Source of the DNA: a bacterium
GTDB lineage: Bacteria > CLD3 > SB21
NCBI GenBank assembly: GCA_013360215.1
Contig: JABWCP010000002.1
Coordinates: 186,001 to 250,000, forward strand
DNA length: 64,000 bases
Direction: 5' to 3'
How positions within the stretch are numbered: the stretch's first letter is position 1; each line of letters starts with the position of its first letter. The position numbers and the translations under genes were made by a program. Shown here one piece after another: positions 13,143-23,622 of this stretch. The notes beneath the pieces were generated by a model. That model was given only the letters and a program-made list of their open reading frames with translations. It ran no database searches and was not told the DNA's origin.

Positions 13143-13183
13143 ATTTCATTAAGATTGAGACGCAGTCTCAATCTTAATGAAAT
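13143..13183. promoter_or_regulatory. 41-bp perfect palindrome, candidate iron-responsive operator of feoAB
   Basis: Two 19-bp arms, perfectly complementary, centred on GCA (core TTGAGAC GCA GTCTCAA). It begins two bases after the predicted -10 box and covers +1. Position and symmetry fit a metalloregulator site (Fur, DtxR/MntR-like or similar) that switches iron uptake off when iron is replete. It does not match the E. coli Fur or DtxR consensus base for base, so the protein is unknown. As RNA it would form a very stable hairpin at the extreme 5' end. Confidence 0.6.
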
Positions 13184-13209
13184 TGTTAAACTTTAAAGAA
13201 ATTTTAGCT

Positions 13210-13455
13210 ATGACGTCGAACAAATTGAAAACTGTAGCACAACTCGGATGCGGCGAATGTGCTGTTATTTGTAAAATCAGCGGCGAACATCTTGAAAACG
13301 ATAACACATGTATACGTTTGATGGAAATGGGATTTACGCCGGGACAAGAAGTCAAAGTTATCGCCAAGTCCCCTTTTCGATGCCCTATGGCGGTTTCTGT
13401 TCGGGGTACAGTAATAGCGCTTCGTAAAAATGAAGCGGAATGCATTCATATATGA
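13210..13455 (+). CDS. feoA: Ferrous iron transport protein A
   Basis: 81 aa from the ATG at 13210. An in-frame ATG at 13177 lies inside the palindrome's right arm and has no ribosome site, so the shorter form, which matches the usual 75-85 aa, is preferred. It has the SH3-like FeoA fold pattern: QLGCGECAVICKISG at the start, then RLMEMGFTPGQEVKVIAKSPF, then PMAVSVRGTVIALRKNEA. It is a small cytoplasmic accessory of the FeoB Fe(II) transporter. Its stop overlaps feoB by ATGA. Expression is probably iron-controlled through the upstream palindrome. Confidence 0.93.
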   Translation: MTSNKLKTVAQLGCGECAVICKISGEHLENDNTCIRLMEMGFTPGQEVKVIAKSPFRCPMAVSVRGTVIALRKNEAECIHI

Positions 13456-15500
13456 CGGATTCGGGTTTGCCATCGGATTGTCATACGCCATCTTCGAACT
13501 CTGTTGCGGGTACCAGCAGCAACACTAGCTTTCGCATCACACTTATCGGCCAACCTAACTCCGGTAAAACCACTTTATTTAATATCCTTACCGGCTCACA
13601 TTTTAAAACTTCTAATTATCCGGGTACGACGGTCGAATTTCTTGTTGGTCGTATGCACGAACGTTTTAAATGCGACGCCCAAGTTATTGATTCGCCCGGT
13701 ATCAACAGTTTAACTCCGCAGTCGTTGGACGAAAAAGTTTCTGTCGACTCGTTATTTTTAGATCCCAATTACCGACATCCTGATCTTGTCCTTGTTACAG
13801 CGGACGCCACTCAGCTCTCCCGCCAACTTTATCTGGTTAAGCAACTTATTGATGCAGGTTTTCCGGTCATTGTCGCTCTTACGATGAATGATTTACTCCA
13901 AAAACGCGGTTTTTCGGTAGATACAACTTTGCTATCGGAACGACTCGGAACTCCTGTCGTAAAAACGTACGGGCATACGGAAAACGGCGTGGCTGAATTA
14001 GCTGAAGCCATACGTGGTTTTTTAGCAGTCACGCAAAAATACATATTACCTCCTATCCCCAGGCTCCAATCGGAATCAGCGGTAATGGAATTGTACCGAA
14101 TAACTGAATCCATAGAGAAAGAGGTAATACGCCCCTTTTCTGTCAAGCCCGACATCCACGCTATCAATCATGCTGTATTTAATACGCGTACCATCGAACC
14201 GGATGAAACATCTTTAAAACTGGACAGAATTTTTCTACACCCGATTTGGGGTATGTTCTTTTTTGTTTTTTTTATGGCGCTTATTTTTACGTCCGTTTTT
14301 TGGTTGGCCCAACCGATGATGGATGTGATTTCAGAGGGATTTGATGCACTAGCCAATCTCTCAAAATCTTGGCTCCCATCATCGCATTGGTTTGGTAACC
14401 TCATCGCTGATGGTTTAATCGCCGGTATGGGTACCGTGATGACCTTTGTTCCTCAAATTGTAATTCTTTTTTTACTCATGGGGATGCTTGAGGATTCCGG
14501 TTACCTATCTCGCGGCGCCATGCTCATTGACAAACCGCTATCCAAGATCGGACTCAACGGTCGTTCGTTTGTTCCGATGCTTTCGGGCTTTGCTTGCGCG
14601 ATACCGGCGACTATGGCCGCCCGTACTATCCCCAATCAGCGGGAACGATTGCTTACGATTTTTATAATACCGCTGATGACATGCAGTGCGCGATTACCGG
14701 TGTACGCATTGCTTTTAGGTTTTCTGATGCCTCCGGATCGTCCTTGGCTGAGCGGATTGATTCTAGCCGGCATTTATTTTGTAAGTCTTATCAATGGTGC
14801 ACTCGTAGCGGGTATTGTCAGTCGTTTTATTAAAGAAAAAACACCGTCCGGTTTTATGCTTGAATTGCCGGCTTACCGCAAACCTATACTACGATTTATA
14901 CTGCGTAATACATTTCAGCGTTCAGTTTCATACATCCAAAACGCCGGTACGACGATCATATTATGCTCGATCATCATCTGGGGGCTTACCTATTTTCCCA
15001 ATGCAAACCCGGAAATCACCGACGAAGCCAAAGCTTCCGGAAATGTCGAACAATGGATCGCCGGAGAACGCACTAGCTCCTCGTATGCTGCGATGGTTGG
15101 TCGATGGATCGAACCCGCATTAATACCACTTGGCTGGGATTGGCGTGTCGGCGTGGGCATGATTTCCGCTTTTGCTGCACGTGAAGTTTTCGTCAGTGCG
15201 ACGGCCCTGACATTTCACATTGCGGAAGATGATGAAGATAATATGCAGCAGTCATTGATTAATTCTATGAGAACCGCCCGGCACGAGCAGACGGGTAAAC
15301 CCGTATTTACGGTTTCTTCGGTCGTGGCCATTGTAATATTTTTTATGTTTGCATTACAATGTACATCTACGCTCGCCGTTGTGCGCAAAGAAACAGGTTC
15401 GTGGAAAATGCCTTTGATCCAACAAGTAGCATTTACATCTATCGGTTATGGATTAGGATGGCTGGCGGTTGTATTGCTTAACGCCGTGGGAATCGCTTAA
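13452..15500 (+). CDS. feoB: Ferrous iron transporter FeoB
   Basis: 682 aa from the ATG that overlaps the feoA stop; a start 4 codons earlier (13440) is possible. N-terminal G domain: G1 GQPNSGKTT, G2-region YPGTTVE, G3 DSPG, G4 read as TMND where NMxD is usual. A helical GDI-like stretch follows (about 190-260), then about 8 membrane helices with the two Gate motifs (SGFACAIPATMAARTI with the pore Cys; LQCTSTLAVVRKETG). It imports Fe(II) across the inner membrane with GTP-coupled gating. The G4 Asn-to-Thr change could alter guanine specificity. The stop is 7 bp from the convergent bfd-like gene, leaving no room for a terminator. feoC is absent. Confidence 0.96.
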   Translation: MTDSGLPSDCHTPSSNSVAGTSSNTSFRITLIGQPNSGKTTLFNILTGSHFKTSNYPGTTVEFLVGRMHERFKCDAQVIDSPGINSLTPQSLDEKVSVDSLFLDPNYRHPDLVLVTADATQLSRQLYLVKQLIDAGFPVIVALTMNDLLQKRGFSVDTTLLSERLGTPVVKTYGHTENGVAELAEAIRGFLAVTQKYILPPIPRLQSESAVMELYRITESIEKEVIRPFSVKPDIHAINHAVFNTRTIEPDETSLKLDRIFLHPIWGMFFFVFFMALIFTSVFWLAQPMMDVISEGFDALANLSKSWLPSSHWFGNLIADGLIAGMGTVMTFVPQIVILFLLMGMLEDSGYLSRGAMLIDKPLSKIGLNGRSFVPMLSGFACAIPATMAARTIPNQRERLLTIFIIPLMTCSARLPVYALLLGFLMPPDRPWLSGLILAGIYFVSLINGALVAGIVSRFIKEKTPSGFMLELPAYRKPILRFILRNTFQRSVSYIQNAGTTIILCSIIIWGLTYFPNANPEITDEAKASGNVEQWIAGERTSSSYAAMVGRWIEPALIPLGWDWRVGVGMISAFAAREVFVSATALTFHIAEDDEDNMQQSLINSMRTARHEQTGKPVFTVSSVVAIVIFFMFALQCTSTLAVVRKETGSWKMPLIQQVAFTSIGYGLGWLAVVLLNAVGIA

Positions 15501-15506
15501 AAACGA

Positions 15507-15695
15507 TTACTCATTAACTTCAAATCGTGTCTGACCGGTCGCCAGCATTCGTCGAATATAGGGATGACATAATTTACAACGTACGCCGACTAAAACCCGC
15601 TCTTGTAATTCTTCCAATGTCTTACAGCGATATGCTGCAGCTACTTTTTTGAGCTCTTCAAATTCTTTATCAAAACAAACGCAACGTGTGATCAT
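15507..15695 (-). CDS. BFD-like [2Fe-2S] protein
   Basis: 62 aa. Four cysteines in the spacing C5-x-C7-x32-C40-x2-C43, the same as the [2Fe-2S] fold of bacterioferritin-associated ferredoxin (Bfd). A short helical middle (EFEELKKVAAAYRC...LEELQERV) fits the helix-turn-helix of that fold. The start codon overlaps the cobalamin adenosyltransferase stop by ATGA, so the two are made together. In this setting it may deliver electrons for the Co(II)-to-Co(I) step rather than serve bacterioferritin; no bacterioferritin is in the window. Its nearness to feoB is convergent, not operonic. Confidence 0.82.
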   Translation of the reverse strand: MITRCVCFDKEFEELKKVAAAYRCKTLEELQERVLVGVRCKLCHPYIRRMLATGQTRFEVNE

Positions 15696-16246
15696 TCGTC
15701 AACCGGCTTTTTCCACACGGTATCCGCAATGCCTGCCTTCGCATTTTCCCAGCGCGCCAAAACAAATAAAAGGTCGGAAAGCCGATTAAGATATGTCAAT
15801 ACATGTTCATTGATCGTCTCCTCCTTCGACAGTTTTACTGTCAATCGTTCGGTCCTGCGGCAAACATTTCGCGCCAAATGGAGGTATGACGAGGCCCGTG
15901 TGCCTCCAGGTAGAATAAAATTCGTCAGCTCCGGTAACCGCGCATCAAAACTATCAATCCGTTTTTCGATTTGCAGGGTATTTTCGGCTTTTATCCTAAC
16001 AATGTATTCACTTTTAACGTCCATCGGGGTTGCCAAATCTGCTCCCAGAATAAATAATTCGTTTTGTATCGCCGCATATACCGTATCCAATTCGTCATCT
16101 TCACTATGGCATCGCACTAGACCCATGACGCTGTTTAGTTCGTCAACGGTACCATACGATTCGATTCGAGTAGCATCTTTTTGAACGCGTCCGGCACCAA
16201 ATAAACCCGTCGTGCCATCGTCGCCCGTTTTCGTGTAGATTTTCAT
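15692..16246 (-). CDS. PduO-type cob(I)alamin adenosyltransferase
   Basis: 184 aa, the normal length. The ATP-binding N-terminus MKIYTKTGDDGTTGLFGAGR is followed by ESYGTVDELNS and by the C-terminal helices LARNVCRRTERLTVKLS and LTYLNRLSDLLFVLARWEN, all PduO/MMAB hallmarks. It transfers adenosyl from ATP to Co(I) corrinoid, making coenzyme B12 in the cytoplasm. It starts 5 bp after the upstream propeller lipoprotein stop, so it belongs to the riboswitch-controlled B12 unit, and it couples to the BFD-like gene. This implies the cell makes AdoCbl from scavenged corrinoid. Confidence 0.95.
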   Translation of the reverse strand: MKIYTKTGDDGTTGLFGAGRVQKDATRIESYGTVDELNSVMGLVRCHSEDDELDTVYAAIQNELFILGADLATPMDVKSEYIVRIKAENTLQIEKRIDSFDARLPELTNFILPGGTRASSYLHLARNVCRRTERLTVKLSKEETINEHVLTYLNRLSDLLFVLARWENAKAGIADTVWKKPVDE

Positions 16247-16251
16247 AGATT

Positions 16252-17247
16252 TTATGGTAGTAAAATTGAACTTGGTGTTATACCTACCGGATATCGTTTG
16301 CGAATAGTTCCGTCTTTACGAATCCAATATACGTAACCATTGCGCAAAAAATCTTGCGCATCGGCTGCTAATACGTCTTCACCTAACGGCACTCCAACGA
16401 AATAACTACCCGCTAAAGTGGTTTTGATATCGGCTCTCATATCGTATCGTACAATGGCGTTGTTGCTTCGCGTGTTATAAACCAAAACAGAATCATGCAT
16501 ACGAACAAAAGTAGGATTGATACCGGAGACTATTTCAGAAGTAATCATTTTAGTCAAGGGGTCCCATTCTACTATTTTACCAGCGCTAGAATTTTTACCG
16601 GTATAAGCGATATAAACCTTACCGGCAGGATTATTAGCCCATACGGAAACGGCCAGTGAACCGATAGCATACGCATTGACGTCCGACATAGTTATGTCAA
16701 TCAAACTGATCACACTATCTTTTGATAATACTCCATCCGGCGATCGGCTATTGGATACGATCAAAAATCCGTTGAGCGCTGTTATTTCATCCGGTCTATG
16801 GCTGAGTTTATAACGGTGCGTTTCCGTATAATCGGCGGCATCATACGCTATAACCAAACTGTCAAAATACGAGGTCACATACACATTATTCTGGTACAGA
16901 ACGCCATTACGCGGGCTTTCGATGCCAGTAATCGTGTGCATGGCTTTAAGTGTTCTGCGGTGCAGGATACTGATTTTATCGGAGCCCGTCATCATCAGCC
17001 AAGCTGTGGAATCAGTAAAAACCGCGCTGTGAACGGCGCTTCCGTTCAGATAAGAACCTGTGGCGTTTGAAAAAGTTGTATCTTCATACAGTGTGTCAAG
17101 CAACGTAATGGAAGCATTGTTAGCCCCATAATTACCTTCATTGATAATCCATACACTCGACAAACCGCTCGGTATGGCCGAAAAGGAATCATCGCTCTCA
17201 TTACAACTCATAGAAAAAAAAATCCCCACGGCGAAAATGTATAACAT
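16252..17247 (-). CDS. BtuG-like beta-propeller lipoprotein (copy 2)
   Basis: 331 aa from the ATG at 17247; a longer frame would overlap the upstream gene's coding end and lacks a signal. Lipobox MSC (FFSMSC). The mature protein starts WIINEGNYGANNASITLLDT, close to the LNEGSFGAGNGDVTLY start of the paralogue at 17947, and continues as YncE/DUF5074-like repeats typical of a seven-bladed propeller (for example SPRNGVLYQNNVYVTSYFDS). Surface propellers of this kind (BtuG) bind B12 very tightly and hand it to BtuB in Bacteroides. Placement in a B12-riboswitch unit supports that role here. Direct B12 binding is inferred. Confidence 0.78.
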   Translation of the reverse strand: MLYIFAVGIFFSMSCNESDDSFSAIPSGLSSVWIINEGNYGANNASITLLDTLYEDTTFSNATGSYLNGSAVHSAVFTDSTAWLMMTGSDKISILHRRTLKAMHTITGIESPRNGVLYQNNVYVTSYFDSLVIAYDAADYTETHRYKLSHRPDEITALNGFLIVSNSRSPDGVLSKDSVISLIDITMSDVNAYAIGSLAVSVWANNPAGKVYIAYTGKNSSAGKIVEWDPLTKMITSEIVSGINPTFVRMHDSVLVYNTRSNNAIVRYDMRADIKTTLAGSYFVGVPLGEDVLAADAQDFLRNGYVYWIRKDGTIRKRYPVGITPSSILLP

Positions 17248-17290
17248 CAATTTCAACCGTGAGGTGTAAAAAAATAAAGCGCTCAAATTA

Positions 17291-17848
17291 TTATCCGTGA
17301 ATAGGCGCTGATTGGCGACTGAGCTTTGTAACGATAAAATGAACTGCTTCATATAGTCCGACAAATACCACGATAAAAAACATATCCCCGGCCAATGCAT
17401 TTTTGAAAAAAGGAATCGCCATAATATAGCTTTGCATCAAGCCGGATATATCTTTGGTATATTCCGGAATTACAAGCCACGCTGCAAAATTGGTTGTCAG
17501 ATAAAAAAGTACCGATGAGGCTAAGGTACCACCGCCTACGGCCATGGCAAACTGTTTCTTGTTTTCATAGACATTACGAACTCGGGTTCCAATCCATGAG
17601 CTGACTAATATCGAAGCATAAACAACCGGTGAAGTCCAATCCATTCCGAGAAAAAGGTCGGCTACGATCATTGACGCTAACGGTAATCCGTACGCCAACG
17701 AGCGATTCAAATAGATCCCACCAAAAATCGCCATCGCAGTTACCGGAACAAAGTTCCAAGGATGCGGCATAAGGCGATACCCTACAATTAACAAAACCGT
17801 CACCAGTGTAGGAACAAACCTCAGCATGTTTGACGTGCGCATTGTCAT
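17291..17848 (-). CDS. DUF6580-like membrane protein, candidate B12 transport component
   Basis: 185 aa. The ATG at 17848 is chosen because AAAAGG lies 8 bases before it; the frame is open 34 codons further. About six hydrophobic helices, beginning with FVPTLVTVLLIVGYRLMPHP; the WNFVPVTAMAIFGGIYL and PLASMIVADLFLG segments resemble the DUF6580 family and the general size and layout of ECF S components. No cysteine, so it lacks the cobalt-liganding Cys of BtuM. It lies between two B12-type propeller lipoproteins and no BtuCD genes are near, so it may carry corrinoid across the inner membrane. Family moderately sure, substrate inferred. Confidence 0.7.
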   Translation of the reverse strand: MTMRTSNMLRFVPTLVTVLLIVGYRLMPHPWNFVPVTAMAIFGGIYLNRSLAYGLPLASMIVADLFLGMDWTSPVVYASILVSSWIGTRVRNVYENKKQFAMAVGGGTLASSVLFYLTTNFAAWLVIPEYTKDISGLMQSYIMAIPFFKNALAGDMFFIVVFVGLYEAVHFIVTKLSRQSAPIHG

Positions 17849-17946
17849 AATGATTACCTTTTTATTATACGTTATATATGATTTAATGATAAATTTTTTA
17901 TTCACTGCAGACGTGTCAATATAGTTTGCCTTGGATAATTTTGCAA

Positions 17947-18987
17947 TCACTTATTCTTGTTGTAAAATACCATCCCTGACGGAAAATCACCAACGGTAAA
18001 GCTATGCTTCACTTGACCGTCTTGATCAAATATTTCAAATTTACCCGGTACTAACGATGCGTCGGTTGCATATACGTCGGAATCCACGTCGGGATTTAAA
18101 ACAACGTTGTAAAAGGAACCTTTGATACTATCCATAATGGCCCAATTGCTGGTATTAAATTTTTGTATGTCGCCATAGAATCCACTTATAAAGTAACCTA
18201 TGTTTTCATTCACAGCGATGCGCCCCGGATAAAAGGATTTCGCACCTGTAGAGCTAGGCAAATTCACCAATGAATCCACCATTGTTTGGGTATTTAGATC
18301 AACAACGTAAATACCACCTGGTACAGGTATTTCTGCATATTGATTTCCTTCGCATGCGATAAAAAGTTTATTATCCCCGGATGACTTGCTAAATGCTCGC
18401 GGACCATAACCGACACGAATGATTTTGGTAATCGATTTTGACACTGTATTGTAGATTTTCACCGTATTATCATTGCCGTAACCGTAATTAGCGACATAAA
18501 GATCATTGCCGTCGAGAAACAAAGCTTCCGGCGCTGTGCCTATCGCAATCGAATCCGTCACTTTTTTTTGTGTTAAATCCAGCGTTTTGAGTTTTCCGTC
18601 CCACGCCGTCAGATAAACTTTGTCTTCATCACCTTTGACAAACATACGCGGCTGTAGCGTACCTATAGTTGATAAAAGCGTAAAATCTTTCAACCGAACA
18701 AAACAAATTTTATTCGAATTATTAATGGAAATAACAGCCATCGTATCAAGTATCAGCATATCCTGTACAATATCGCCGGCGGATTTGCCATTGGCACTCA
18801 AGTAAAGATTATTGATCACATCCGCACTATCAGGGCGATAAAGAGTAACGTCACCATTTCCAGCGCCAAATGAACCCTCATTTAAAATAAATATACCCTC
18901 TGTAATGATCCCGGACTTAGGGTCAGAAATTTTTTCTTCGCACGATAATACTATCGTGAAACTTATAACAAACCATAAGTAGCGCAT
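17947..18987 (-). CDS. BtuG-like beta-propeller lipoprotein (copy 1)
   Basis: 346 aa. GGAGAAAAAGC precedes the ATG. Lipobox VLSC (Cys16), then an acidic linker. The body is a YncE/DUF5074-like propeller: LNEGSFGAGNGDVTLY, IGTAPEALFLDGNDLYVANY, GYGPRAFSKSSGDNKLFIAC and related blades. It starts 17 bp after the TonB receptor stop. In Bacteroides the matching gene, btuG, encodes a surface lipoprotein that captures B12 and caps BtuB. The protein shares its opening blade motif with the copy at 16252, so the unit carries two divergent capture proteins. Whether both bind the same corrinoid is not known. Confidence 0.82.
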   Translation of the reverse strand: MRYLWFVISFTIVLSCEEKISDPKSGIITEGIFILNEGSFGAGNGDVTLYRPDSADVINNLYLSANGKSAGDIVQDMLILDTMAVISINNSNKICFVRLKDFTLLSTIGTLQPRMFVKGDEDKVYLTAWDGKLKTLDLTQKKVTDSIAIGTAPEALFLDGNDLYVANYGYGNDNTVKIYNTVSKSITKIIRVGYGPRAFSKSSGDNKLFIACEGNQYAEIPVPGGIYVVDLNTQTMVDSLVNLPSSTGAKSFYPGRIAVNENIGYFISGFYGDIQKFNTSNWAIMDSIKGSFYNVVLNPDVDSDVYATDASLVPGKFEIFDQDGQVKHSFTVGDFPSGMVFYNKNK

Positions 18988-19004
18988 GCTTTTTCTCCAA
19001 TATG

Positions 19005-20921
19005 TTAGAACGTTATTTTAGTTCCCACGACATACTCGCGCGCAAGCCCGGGATATTGCGCAACGGATTCGTAAGCTTTATCAAAAATATTTTTTACGAT
19101 TACGCTAAGCTGTACATCATAACTAATTATTTGTTTGTGCCAAGACACTATCGCATCCGTAAGCCAATAACTCGGTATTACACTGTTATTAGCAGCATCT
19201 GTATAACGTTGACTCTGATAATGCGTTGTATGACCTATTGTAAAATCTTTGAACATAGCATAATTCGATAAAGAAGCTGTGTATAGCGGATTGTACGGAA
19301 TCCGTCGTACATTATCGGGATCGCTGGTATCAACGGCCTTCGCACGTGAAAGTTCAAATTTGGTTTCCCACATTTGTTCTTTTTCGTACTTCATCGCCAA
19401 TTCCCTACCCCGTGATGAACTTTTGCGAATATTTTCAGGATGTATTATTCCGGCCAAATTCCATGCGATCTGATTGTGTGCTCTCATTACAAACCACGTA
19501 TATTCGATTTCAAAGCTATGCTTTCCTTGCGAACCACCGAAGCGTCCGCCCAAATCCCATGTTGTTGATCGCTCGGGTTTGATATCCGGATTGCCTGATG
19601 CGTCCGTATCTTTCCAATATCGTTCATTGAGCGTAGGCGCTCTAAAATTACGAGACCATGATGCGCGTAAGGACGTGTAATAGCCTGATTTTTCGTAGGA
19701 AATATTCATTCCGGCCTTAGGGCTCCATACCTGCCCAAAATCTGAAAATTTATCCCATCGTATAGCCGGTGATAATCGAAAAGACCACATCGGATTGAAC
19801 AACGGAATTAGCCATTGATCATCGGCAAAAACACTGACACTCTGATTACTCACATGATCCGTATTATCGCCTTCGCCTTGCACGAAGGTATGGGTAACAC
19901 CTAAATTGAAAGTATGTTGCTTTAGAAGAGTTATCAGATTAGTCCAACGTGTATGGTAACTATTAGAAATATTTCGGCTATTGATGGTAGTTGGAAATGA
20001 ATTGGTATAATCAAACTGATATTGATACCAACTCAAGCCAATCGCCGTATGCCATTGGTCGTTAAAGCGGTGTTGTATCTGCGGCGCGATGAGAAATACG
20101 CGATCTTCCTGATTTCCGCGTGATGTTACAGATGTATTATTACTAATCGTACCCGGTATCTCAATATCACGAAACGTCCATTGACCCATTAAAGAAAAAT
20201 CAGTTTTTAAGCTTAAATTGTTATTAACATTGAGAAATAGAGCATGACGTTTGCTTTCCGAATTCACCCGCAGTACACGTTCTCCTGAGGACGGCACAGT
20301 AACAAAATAACTGCTATCGGGCTGGTATTCGAACTCATAGGCGAAATTATAAGACGTTTTCTTTATGAAACCTGTTAGCCCCGCTGATAACCACTGTCTT
20401 TTAAATGAACTATAGTGCGCTTTCGTTATAATTGACATCGGTTCATCACGTGGTTGTTTTTTTGTTATGAGGTTTATTGTCCCGCCTACGGCGTTATTAT
20501 CGCCTCCTTTGTATGTTTCGATATGATCAATCATGGTCAAAGGAACAACACCCAAATCAATCAAACCCGTAGCGGGATTATTGAGCGGTATTCCGTCAAT
20601 CATGATTATAACCTGCTCAGAAGTAGAACCTCGCAAAGATGGAAGTTTGAGTCCTGATGCTCCGCCGAAGTCTTTAATTTGTATCCCTGAAGCACCACTC
20701 AAAGCGTCGGATAGATTGGTTGCCCCTCGCCTTTGGATATTTTCTTCTGTAATGACATTAACCAATGCAGAAGAGGCATTTCGGGAATTTATCAAACGTG
20801 ATGAGGTAATAACCGTACCCTGCAAGTCATATTGCTTAATTTTAACACTATCCCCGGTTTGCGAATAATATTCGGCAATGGCGAACCACAATAACCCGAT
20901 GTATATGGTACTTTTCATCAT
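19005..20921 (-). CDS. btuB: TonB-dependent receptor, BtuB-like cobalamin transporter
   Basis: 638 aa. Signal peptide at residues 1-20 (starts MM; either Met may initiate). A TonB-box-like QYDLQGTVITSSR is followed by the plug domain (VITEENIQRRGATNLSDAL, IKDFGGASGLKLPSLRGS, VIIMIDGIPLNNP, IETYKGG, GGTINLITKK) and a 22-strand-type barrel ending in ...REYVVGTKITF, with the terminal Phe typical of outer-membrane barrels. The cobalamin riboswitch directly upstream gives the substrate: a corrinoid. It is the first gene of a six-gene unit with two BtuG-like lipoproteins. Its ribosome site (GAGGAT) is inside the terminator stem, so it should be strongly shut off when B12 is plentiful. Confidence 0.92.
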   Translation of the reverse strand: MMKSTIYIGLLWFAIAEYYSQTGDSVKIKQYDLQGTVITSSRLINSRNASSALVNVITEENIQRRGATNLSDALSGASGIQIKDFGGASGLKLPSLRGSTSEQVIIMIDGIPLNNPATGLIDLGVVPLTMIDHIETYKGGDNNAVGGTINLITKKQPRDEPMSIITKAHYSSFKRQWLSAGLTGFIKKTSYNFAYEFEYQPDSSYFVTVPSSGERVLRVNSESKRHALFLNVNNNLSLKTDFSLMGQWTFRDIEIPGTISNNTSVTSRGNQEDRVFLIAPQIQHRFNDQWHTAIGLSWYQYQFDYTNSFPTTINSRNISNSYHTRWTNLITLLKQHTFNLGVTHTFVQGEGDNTDHVSNQSVSVFADDQWLIPLFNPMWSFRLSPAIRWDKFSDFGQVWSPKAGMNISYEKSGYYTSLRASWSRNFRAPTLNERYWKDTDASGNPDIKPERSTTWDLGGRFGGSQGKHSFEIEYTWFVMRAHNQIAWNLAGIIHPENIRKSSSRGRELAMKYEKEQMWETKFELSRAKAVDTSDPDNVRRIPYNPLYTASLSNYAMFKDFTIGHTTHYQSQRYTDAANNSVIPSYWLTDAIVSWHKQIISYDVQLSVIVKNIFDKAYESVAQYPGLAREYVVGTKITF

Positions 20922-20923
20922 AT

Positions 20924-20957
20924 CAAAAAAAAATCCTCATTCGGAAAGAATGAGGAT
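20924..20957 (-). terminator. Riboswitch terminator that also contains the btuB Shine-Dalgarno
   Basis: Minus strand: ATCCTCATTC, loop TTTCC, GAATGAGGAT, then eight T. It ends just 3 bases before the btuB ATG. The 3' arm holds GAGGAT, the only plausible Shine-Dalgarno for btuB, so the same hairpin could stop transcription and hide the ribosome site. Confidence 0.8.
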
Positions 20958-21016
20958 AATAGAAAAGTTGACTTTATTGATCCCCACGCCTTCCCCTCGA
21001 AGGTTGGTCGAATGCA

Positions 21017-21174
21017 GTTTAGGCAGGTCTCCTGACTTGCGCGTTAACGATTGCCTTCCCATTACCGATAGGTTCGATAACAGTGGACTTATTAGAATGC
21101 GCTTACAGTTGCGGGGCAGCTCATGATTTTCACATGATTCCCTTTTCATCACGTCGTATGCGTGACACCTAAAC
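21017..21174 (-). promoter_or_regulatory. Cobalamin (B12) riboswitch aptamer
   Basis: Minus strand. P1 arms GTTTAGG (21168-21174) and CCTAAAC (21017-21023). Between them lie, in order, GAAAAGGGAATC, GAGCTGCCCCGCAACTGTAA, a CCACTG segment, GGGAAGG and the B12 box AGTCAGGAGACCTGCC: all conserved blocks of the class-I cobalamin riboswitch. Bound AdoCbl is expected to favour the downstream terminator and reduce expression of the btuB unit. Confidence 0.96.
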
Positions 21175-21203
21175 CAAATAACAAAGAACAATTGACAGTT
21201 CTC

Positions 21204-21231
21204 AAGATAACCGAAAACTTTTATTTGTCAA
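21204..21231 (-). promoter_or_regulatory. Sigma-70-type promoter of the B12 unit
   Basis: Minus strand TTGACA, 16-bp spacer, TATCTT; predicted +1 about 21197, some 20 nt before the riboswitch P1 stem. It starts 13 bp after the CHAT gene stop, so the B12 unit has its own promoter. Confidence 0.65.
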
Positions 21232-21243
21232 GTTTTAAAATAA

Positions 21244-23622
21244 TTACTTCCAAATCACCCACGATGCCCAATAAAAAGGAAGCGTGTTTTGAACGATAAA
21301 ATCACGTTTGGTTTTTTGTAGCGCCGCCGGAATGGATTTTTCGATAATCCAATGTCGATACAACTGATCAACAAAATTTACTGCATCACGATCGTTAATT
21401 TTCCATAAGGTACTTAAAACTAACGAGGCACCGGAATTAAGAAACGCTTCAGGAATAGCCGGGATATTTTTTTGCGCTATTTTAGTGCTTACGGATGTCT
21501 CACAAGCCGATAAAATAACCGATTGACCGTGTAATTGTTGTTTTTCGATTTCATCACACGTCAAATACCCATCATGATGGGTTTGATCTCGCCCTAATAC
21601 AATTCCGCTTTTACGCACATCGTCTGTCGTGTTCATACCATGACCTATCAAATGCAAAACTTGTGATGTATCTGTGTTTATGATATCATAATAATTTTTT
21701 TCAGTAGCTTGGTAATAAATTTGGTTATACGGAATAATAGACTTGATGCGGTCTATTTCGTTATCAACATCCGGCAGATCCGGCAATGAAGTCCACGAAC
21801 TATATTCTGAGCGGGCCAATATAGTGATCGACGGTATTGTTCGTTCCGATTTAACAGCAAATTCATCTCCAAAATTAAGTGCATTACTATATTGAATCGT
21901 ATGCGTTTCAGTCAGATATCGTCGTTCTATGCTCAACATCTCAAAAGGAAAATTACACAACAAACCGTCAGGTACTATGACCAATTCTTTATGTGATTGA
22001 ACGTAATCTATAATCGCCGGGTTTATCCAATCTGATAATACAGCCAGATGTTGTGATAGACTATGCTGATTAGCGGAAGGTTGACGAAGAAGGGTTTTAA
22101 CTTGTAAAAGGTGATCCTTGATACGTGGTGATATGAATAAACGATAATATTGCAATTCACTCTCTGTATTGAGTAATACATGCATGACCGTATCAGCTTG
22201 AAAGAATGAAATGCCCGATTCAAAAAAAGGTATTGAGTGCGGTTTAATTTTATGGGTAGGAATGCTGTTTAATAAAAGCTGATATCTCAATGCATCATGA
22301 TACTTTTTTTGATCAAAAAGAAATCGAATATAGTTTTTATAAAATCGAGTGCGATTATTGGGGATACTGGCATCATATACAAATGCAGAGCTTTGTTCCT
22401 GATAGATCGAATCTATGGATTGCAGCGCAAGGACATAATAGGCATCAGCGCTGTCCGTTTGGTTAATTGATTCACAATATAAAGCGCGCGCATCATAATA
22501 ACTTGGTGTATATCGTTTTGAAGGAAGTTGGGAGAGTAAATTGTAGGCTTTAGCTAACAACTGATCCCCATGTTCAAATTGTTTTAACTTCACTGTCATT
22601 TGAAATTTAGCAAGAAGGGTATAAAACATTGGATCTAAAGCACCACTATCAAAATAGATGTCATACGCCATATTCCAAAAGTACATGGCGCTATCGTACA
22701 ATGATAACGTACGGTATGTTCCAGCTAATTCGTAATACCCGTCAGCCGTTGCAATTTTGTCACCTGCTTTTTCAGTGATAACCAATGAGCTTCGTAAACA
22801 TTGAAGGGCTGATTTTATTTGGCCATGATTATTAAATAAATGCGCCATATTGTTCAAAATTAATCCCTCGGACCCTACATCTCCCGTCATTCGTATGTAT
22901 TCAAGTGCTTTTTCAAAACAATAACGGCTTTCGGGGTATAATTCCATCTCCAAAAAAATCAAACTCAAGTTTTGATAATCAGCCGCCATGTCGGCCTTAT
23001 CATTACGCAGAGAATCTTGGTGCAAAGCCATTCTATATTTTTCTATTGCGGAAGCATAATCCCCCATCATTTTATAAACAATACCACGATTGGAAACAAT
23101 CCACGATTGCAATTTGATATCTAAGTCGCGGTGTATGTAATGCTCAGCTTTATTCAAAGCTTCGTTGGCTAAAAAGGGTTGAGAAGATTGGATATAGATG
23201 ATACCAACCGTATTCCAATAGCGGGCCAAGGTGGTCGAATCTTTAACCGTAGGAAGTATTGATTGGATTATAGTGAGTAACGAGTCGCAGAGTTTAAAAT
23301 TACCTGTTTCAGCAGCAACAAGAATATAATCCTGAGTCCACCGAAAACGATCCATTGTTGCAACATCCTTACGTTGTAACAGCGATGAATACAAACTTTG
23401 CGACTCCTTGTTTTGACCAAGATAGAAATACGCTTTCGACAGCGCAGCATGGGTAGCGGGCTTATGTATTGTGGAAATACTATTTACTTCAAAAAGGTGT
23501 ATGGCATCGGCATATTTACTTTCACGAAGTAAGGCGTCCACACTATCGAGTAATATATGATCCTGAGCATGTATTTGGCTCATAACAAACAGAAACCAAA
23601 GAAACAATCTCATAAAAATCAT
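21244..23622 (-). CDS. Exported TPR-CHAT protein (putative caspase-like protease)
   Basis: 792 aa. Signal peptide ends IHAQ. Residues 25-420 are TPR repeats (for example YASAIEKYRMALHQDS, YPESRYCFEKALEYIRM). A helical linker follows, then a CHAT domain (about 590-792) with the caspase-type dyad: His in VLHLIGHGMN and Cys in VILSACETS, and a STLWKINDRDAV block. CHAT proteins are cysteine peptidases of the caspase clan, often with TPR substrate adaptors; some are defence proteins. Here the N-terminal signal puts it in the periplasm or outside. Its start overlaps the parvulin lipoprotein stop by ATGA, which suggests an envelope protein-quality role. Substrate unknown. Confidence 0.88.
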   Translation of the reverse strand: MIFMRLFLWFLFVMSQIHAQDHILLDSVDALLRESKYADAIHLFEVNSISTIHKPATHAALSKAYFYLGQNKESQSLYSSLLQRKDVATMDRFRWTQDYILVAAETGNFKLCDSLLTIIQSILPTVKDSTTLARYWNTVGIIYIQSSQPFLANEALNKAEHYIHRDLDIKLQSWIVSNRGIVYKMMGDYASAIEKYRMALHQDSLRNDKADMAADYQNLSLIFLEMELYPESRYCFEKALEYIRMTGDVGSEGLILNNMAHLFNNHGQIKSALQCLRSSLVITEKAGDKIATADGYYELAGTYRTLSLYDSAMYFWNMAYDIYFDSGALDPMFYTLLAKFQMTVKLKQFEHGDQLLAKAYNLLSQLPSKRYTPSYYDARALYCESINQTDSADAYYVLALQSIDSIYQEQSSAFVYDASIPNNRTRFYKNYIRFLFDQKKYHDALRYQLLLNSIPTHKIKPHSIPFFESGISFFQADTVMHVLLNTESELQYYRLFISPRIKDHLLQVKTLLRQPSANQHSLSQHLAVLSDWINPAIIDYVQSHKELVIVPDGLLCNFPFEMLSIERRYLTETHTIQYSNALNFGDEFAVKSERTIPSITILARSEYSSWTSLPDLPDVDNEIDRIKSIIPYNQIYYQATEKNYYDIINTDTSQVLHLIGHGMNTTDDVRKSGIVLGRDQTHHDGYLTCDEIEKQQLHGQSVILSACETSVSTKIAQKNIPAIPEAFLNSGASLVLSTLWKINDRDAVNFVDQLYRHWIIEKSIPAALQKTKRDFIVQNTLPFYWASWVIWK

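Follow-up and report, generated by a model that had tools for sequence, protein, structure and literature searches.

Through which protein does a bacterium take vitamin B12 across its inner membrane when no BtuC-type permease is detected in its genome? The question is raised by an operon at positions 21231 to 15507, minus strand, of the window (the whole stretch of DNA analyzed, 64,000 nucleotides; contig JABWCP010000002.1, positions 186,001 to 250,000, assembly GCA_013360215.1, from a bacterium of the GTDB lineage CLD3; SB21). We read it as an operon for the import and activation of B12 under riboswitch control, in which a membrane protein of DUF6580, a family of no assigned function, serves as a solitary S-component importer without the motor of the energy-coupling factor (ECF) transporters, and we put the probability of this reading at roughly 0.8. 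A first-pass annotation, made from the sequence alone, had listed these parts, except the hairpin, in order on one strand; all of them were recovered in that order:

21204 to 21231, minus strand: promoter-like site TTGACA-16-TATCTT, 10/12 in a consensus scan, directly 5' of the riboswitch.
21005 to 21187, minus strand: cobalamin riboswitch aptamer RF00174, 110.5 bits against a gathering threshold of 31.5.
20933 to 20957, minus strand: terminator-like hairpin (10-pair stem plus T8) between the aptamer and the receptor start, recurring in the folded leader.
19005 to 20921, minus strand: BtuB-like TonB-dependent receptor, 638 amino acids, PF00593 and PF07715 over cut-off.
17947 to 18987, minus strand: propeller 1, BtuG-like lipoprotein, 346 amino acids, matching BtuG3 (8p97_B) at E 4.5e-18; DUF5074 over cut-off; lipobox VLSC.
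17291 to 17848, minus strand: DUF6580 membrane protein, 185 amino acids, PF20221 at 147.5 bits against a cut-off of 27.
16252 to 17247, minus strand: propeller 2, BtuG-like lipoprotein, about 331 amino acids, matching BtuG by sequence at E 2.5e-11; lipobox SMSC.
15692 to 16246, minus strand: PduO-type cob(I)alamin adenosyltransferase, 184 amino acids, TIGR00636 at 212.3 bits against a cut-off of 108.45; PF01923.
15507 to 15695, minus strand: BFD-like [2Fe-2S] protein, 62 amino acids, PF04324 at 27.3 bits against a cut-off of 26; CxC and CxxC motifs.

The source assembly (3.72 Mb, rated 100% complete) belongs to a small phylum, from which nine species genomes were compared; its close relatives are metagenome assemblies. 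CbiC was found by family search in none of the nine, and all of them encode B12-binding-domain proteins, for which the source genome gave ten matches. Because of this combination, the bacterium very probably uses B12 and is unable to make corrin. Family searches, on which the gene absences in the source genome rest, also found no match there to the FecCD permeases (PF01032; 13/14 controls were detected) or to EcfT (PF02361). Since EcfT, FecCD/BtuC permeases and CbiC are all missing, DUF6580 is the only candidate for an inner-membrane B12 importer found in this genome. It would perform the same step as the ABC importer BtuCDF, to which it is unrelated; the first-pass annotation had described a membrane protein other than BtuCD.

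The predicted fold of DUF6580 is that of B12-binding S-components. A homology search, which the first-pass annotation had suggested, was carried out with a profile of 82 aligned members against PDB sequences and returned a single match, 6fnp_A (E 0.0012, 21.9 bits), a chain of 182 residues consistent with the size of CbrT; entry 6FNP is ECF-CbrT (PMC5997447). The DUF6580 motifs RLLP-HPxNFxP and SDxFLGF align with R-IPNVQP and SNIFLGF of CbrT. No BtuM chain was matched by the profile among PDB sequences at E up to 10. The AlphaFold model (predicted local distance difference test [pLDDT] 88, predicted template modeling score 0.82) was best aligned by VIA-align to cyanocobalamin-bound BtuM (8c7p; Z 13.3, 163 residues, 3.4 Å), with ECF S-components filling ranks 1 to 22 and the first unrelated chain at Z 6.2. 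Foldseek also placed S-components near the top, with E-values of 0.16 or worse. Each of these results is modest alone, and the S-component assignment, which is a prediction from model and sequence, draws its strength from the agreement between methods.

Conservation points to one face of the protein. Among the DUF6580 columns conserved at 90% or more, 25/29 cluster at one membrane end, in the half that contains loops 1, 3 and 5, with halves and topology assigned manually from the helices of the model. In S-components, this is the ligand-binding end. The invariance of HPWN and MAIPFF was partly produced by the search patterns used; D64, F115, N120, Y130 and G136 are likewise invariant and lie outside those patterns. 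The 185-residue window protein is free of cysteine, and none is conserved across the 82 relatives, where cysteine reaches at most 50%, at position 140, so a cobalt-cysteine bond of the BtuM type cannot form in it. H29, the sole conserved histidine, is a possible cobalt ligand.

Two described B12 S-components invite comparison. BtuM of Thiobacillus denitrificans (PMC6072759, PDB 8c7p) is likewise a small, solitary, S-component-like membrane protein without an ECF module, and its gene is paired with that of an adenosyltransferase. BtuM is evidence that B12 uptake can be supported by a solitary S-component, and metabolic trapping has been proposed for BtuM with BtuR (PMC6072759). DUF6580 and an adenosyltransferase gene share one operon here, a BtuM/BtuR-like pairing. 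In contrast, BtuM has no detectable sequence match to DUF6580, occurs mostly in Proteobacteria, and needs Cys80 in loop 3 as cobalt ligand (PMC6072759). CbrT is also a B12-binding S-component, but it works with EcfA, EcfA' and EcfT (PMC5997447), the last of which the source genome lacks. DUF6580 is probably related to CbrT and probably works like BtuM; because EcfT and the BtuM cysteine are both absent, we assign it to neither. The family is named in no paper of the open-licence literature searched.

If DUF6580 does the work of BtuC, the two should seldom share a genome. We examined 119 genomes of the class containing Ignavibacteria bacterium UBA2360, counting a FecCD match as strong at E below 1e-30. 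DUF6580 was over cut-off in 59/119 and strong FecCD was present in 58/119, with both in three genomes and neither in five (Fisher p 4e-24, a value inflated by the shared ancestry of the genomes, which are not independent). Eight FecCD proteins were inspected, six from this class and two from the sister family f2; the best NCBIfam match was a BtuC model in seven, all below cut-offs, and their substrate is likely B12. Among nine fetched FecCD genes, three adjoin an obgE-like gene; in one of the regions, a cobalamin riboswitch was seen at a distance of about 7 kb. In loci L105, L108 and L112, from class genomes lacking DUF6580, a lone FecCD permease gene adjoins the obgE-like GTPase gene, with no transport operon. 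Across several phyla, strong FecCD was found in 1/40 DUF6580 genomes; weak matches of 20 to 40 bits in such genomes, probably another permease family, were not counted as BtuC. EcfT was detected in 1/45 genomes searched, 43 of which carry DUF6580, while controls were detected.

The sister family f2 lacks DUF6580 and has one strong FecCD per genome. We rejected this FecCD as a direct replacement: its gene stands outside any recognizable B12 locus, with no riboswitch nearby, and the replacement claim is therefore based on the comparison of the 119 class genomes.

When 84,980 species genomes were scanned, 226 DUF6580 relatives were confirmed and 80 loci kept, from Patescibacteria, Ignavibacteria, Kapabacteria, Omnitrophota, Elusimicrobia, Rokubacteria, Abditibacterium and others; viral contigs and plasmids yielded no relative. 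A B12 marker lay within 3.5 kb of DUF6580 in 74/79 loci, against 0/410 genes more than 5 kb away, a contrast that is partly built in, since some marker seeds were drawn from DUF6580 neighbors themselves. Independent of these seeds, Pfam and NCBIfam calls among the neighbors include MetH, adenosylcobalamin-dependent NrdJ, CobA/BtuR, TonB receptors, DUF4430 and toroid proteins; BtuB and BtuG recur as well. The order in Ignavibacteria is riboswitch, propeller, receptor, DUF6580, MetH, with one propeller upstream of the receptor. Three riboswitch classes occur near DUF6580: RF00174, RF01482 (Elusimicrobia) and RF01689 (Patescibacteria). In Elusimicrobia, RF01482 ends 18 bases 5' of the DUF6580 open frame; locus L084 has two such adenosylcobalamin riboswitches (168-315 and 960-1155), one directly before DUF6580 and the other after it, before a TonB receptor gene. 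A secreted TSP3-repeat protein, a possible further B12 binder, is encoded between a cobalamin riboswitch and DUF6580 in Rokubacteria (L080:1712-2962).

Transcobalamin is built on a two-part plan, one half of which is a toroid. In Patescibacteria, DUF6580 is accompanied by prenyltransferase-like toroid and DUF4430 domain proteins, and DUF4430 is found at the C-terminus of transcobalamin (PMC4350170). These proteins (L013:5753-8683, L016:8498-8887, L041:6150-7901 and similar), some with a possible C-terminal membrane anchor, are candidate surface B12 binders. They share the toroid and DUF4430 plan with transcobalamin and intrinsic factor but are bacterial, membrane-anchored or secreted, and putative in their binding of B12. 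No paper of the literature searched joins Patescibacteria with transcobalamin.

On balance, though with less assurance than we grant the operon itself, we favor a wider proposal: alongside BtuCDF, ECF-CbrT and BtuM, DUF6580 would be an inner-membrane B12 importer of a widespread and as yet undescribed kind, acting as a solitary S-component that lacks the cysteine of BtuM. It would be fed by BtuB with BtuG propellers in two-membrane bacteria or by transcobalamin-like toroid/DUF4430 proteins in Patescibacteria, and would replace BtuC where BtuC is missing. For most B12-importing prokaryotes, the membrane proteins are still to be identified (Rempel et al., PMC6072759). DUF6580 offers a concrete candidate family for this gap, with a probable fold, conserved residues and a set of organisms where it apparently takes the place of FecCD permeases, and makes the gap directly testable by the existing Escherichia coli complementation assay. 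For Patescibacteria, it suggests how small-genome cells might obtain B12 for ribonucleotide reductase, by way of a catcher that follows the transcobalamin plan.

In the window, we envisage the following sequence. At plentiful cobalamin, the riboswitch would turn the operon off, probably through the terminator hairpin before the receptor gene. When the operon is expressed, the two surface BtuG-like propellers would catch corrinoids and hand them to the BtuB-like receptor, which would carry them across the outer membrane on TonB energy. DUF6580 would then bind the corrinoid through conserved residues of its outer face (R25, H29, N32, D64, N120, Y130 and N150, among others), reorient in the membrane and release it inside without an ECF motor. 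The PduO-type adenosyltransferase would make adenosylcobalamin, trapping the vitamin, and the BFD-like ferredoxin is a possible electron donor for the cobalt reduction.

Several points weigh against this reading. The sequence match to CbrT is weak and the Foldseek E-values for the fold are no better than 0.16; the cysteine that ligates cobalt in BtuM is missing; and none of the operon's products was recognized as a periplasmic carrier. To these are added the partly built-in marker contrast, the inflated Fisher p value, and the three class genomes holding both DUF6580 and FecCD and the five holding neither.

The missing carrier bears on the role of the propellers. Both are BtuG relatives, as the first-pass annotation had proposed: propeller 1 by its sequence match, and propeller 2, weaker by sequence, by its AlphaFold model (pLDDT 83.7), for which BtuG exclusively fills Foldseek ranks 1 to 16 (best 8.5e-17) and VIA-align ranks 1 to 11 (Z 32.5 to 33.9; next chain, Z 30.0). 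The structural comparison with BtuG suggested for both was thus made for propeller 2, and propeller 1 was compared by sequence. A joint profile of the two covers nearly the full length of BtuG3 (E 5e-49). The shared opening motif NEGxxGAxN was found as NEGSFGAGN and NEGNYGANN. Both carry lipoprotein signals read in the sequence and stand in one operon with a BtuB-type receptor, whose best NCBIfam match is TonB-B12 (TIGR01779, 2.5e-44, below that model's cut-off). Bacteroides BtuBG loci (PMC10404256, PMC6143338) likewise combine a riboswitch, a TonB receptor and a BtuG-like surface propeller, but use an inner-membrane ABC transporter, where the operon in the window encodes DUF6580 and has a second propeller.

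It is conceivable, though we think it unlikely, that propeller 2 is no surface BtuG lid but a protein on the periplasmic side that passes B12 on to DUF6580, as a substitute for BtuF. Its gene directly follows DUF6580 in 7/7 genomes of the family, propeller 1 is missing in genus g4, and the operon has no secreted BtuF-like gene. The model, however, is closest to surface BtuG, and a periplasmic propeller 2 would leave genus g4 without any surface propeller. Genera g1, g2 and g3 have both propellers and g4 the propeller-2 type only; the propeller pair is therefore a lineage-specific trait of part of the family. The annotation had seen an undescribed variant in the two propellers with a membrane protein between them. 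The unit does depart, as a variant, from the B12 uptake systems known so far. Of more weight than the propeller pair, though, is the finding that DUF6580 probably imports B12 across the inner membrane, in this bacterium as in many other groups.

A BtuF-like binding protein (PF01497) without an evident signal peptide was seen at L095:6901-7830 and in L009. In genus g2, its gene stands between those of propeller 1 and DUF6580; in Omnitrophota and Rokubacteria (loci L072 and L080), it adjoins DUF6580. This protein may be a cytoplasmic B12 acceptor.

Less probable than a periplasmic propeller 2 is a DUF6580 that serves as a B12 S-component with an ATP-driven partner missed by the EcfT model, for example a divergent ECF module or an ABC transporter of another type. 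CbrT, its nearest sequence relative, does require an ECF module (PMC5997447), but EcfT was unmatched in 44/45 genomes, the operon holds no ABC genes, and no recurring ATPase appears among the neighbor family tallies shown. We give still less credit to DUF6580 as a carrier of a B12-related compound (dimethylbenzimidazole, α-ribazole or cobalt) or as a B12 sensor rather than an importer of intact corrinoids. In its favor, S-components are known for a range of ligands, receptors can share the fold (PMC11109136), and the structural ranks after BtuM include S-components for other vitamins. Against this possibility, DUF6580 accompanies whole-corrinoid catchers (BtuB and BtuG) and B12-using enzymes and alternates with FecCD permeases, most of which have BtuC as their best NCBIfam match, and DUF6580 aside, no inner-membrane B12 route was found in the source genome. 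It is very improbable that DUF6580 stands in the operon by chance, as a bystander or a membrane protein of general function: receptor, propellers and adenosyltransferase alone would already mark a B12 locus, but the B12 neighbors are kept in distant phyla without BtuB or BtuG, and the protein has a predicted S-component fold and alternates with FecCD.

Among the regulatory elements of the operon, the RF00174 match is full length (positions 1 to 189 of the covariance model) and is the sole copy in the genome. Because a 10-pair hairpin with T8 lies between the aptamer and the receptor start, we infer that the riboswitch acts through transcription termination, with this hairpin as its probable expression platform. 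The region contains six terminator-like hairpins against 5.6 in shuffles and 20 promoter-like sites against 17.6, so that both the hairpin and TTGACA-16-TATCTT are consensus matches only; the folding energy of the leader is ordinary relative to shuffles (z -0.5).

Two gene starts were revised. DUF6580 most likely starts at 17848 rather than 17950, and propeller 2 at about 17247 rather than 17400; the frames are then shorter than the longest open frames, the overlaps disappear, and propeller 2 gains its SMSC lipoprotein signal. The operon order is largely kept among other genomes of the same family. On the flanks, a TPR-CHAT protein gene (21244-23622, minus strand) ends just 5' of the promoter-like site on the same strand, and feoA and feoB, for ferrous iron uptake (13177-15500, plus strand), converge on the operon end.

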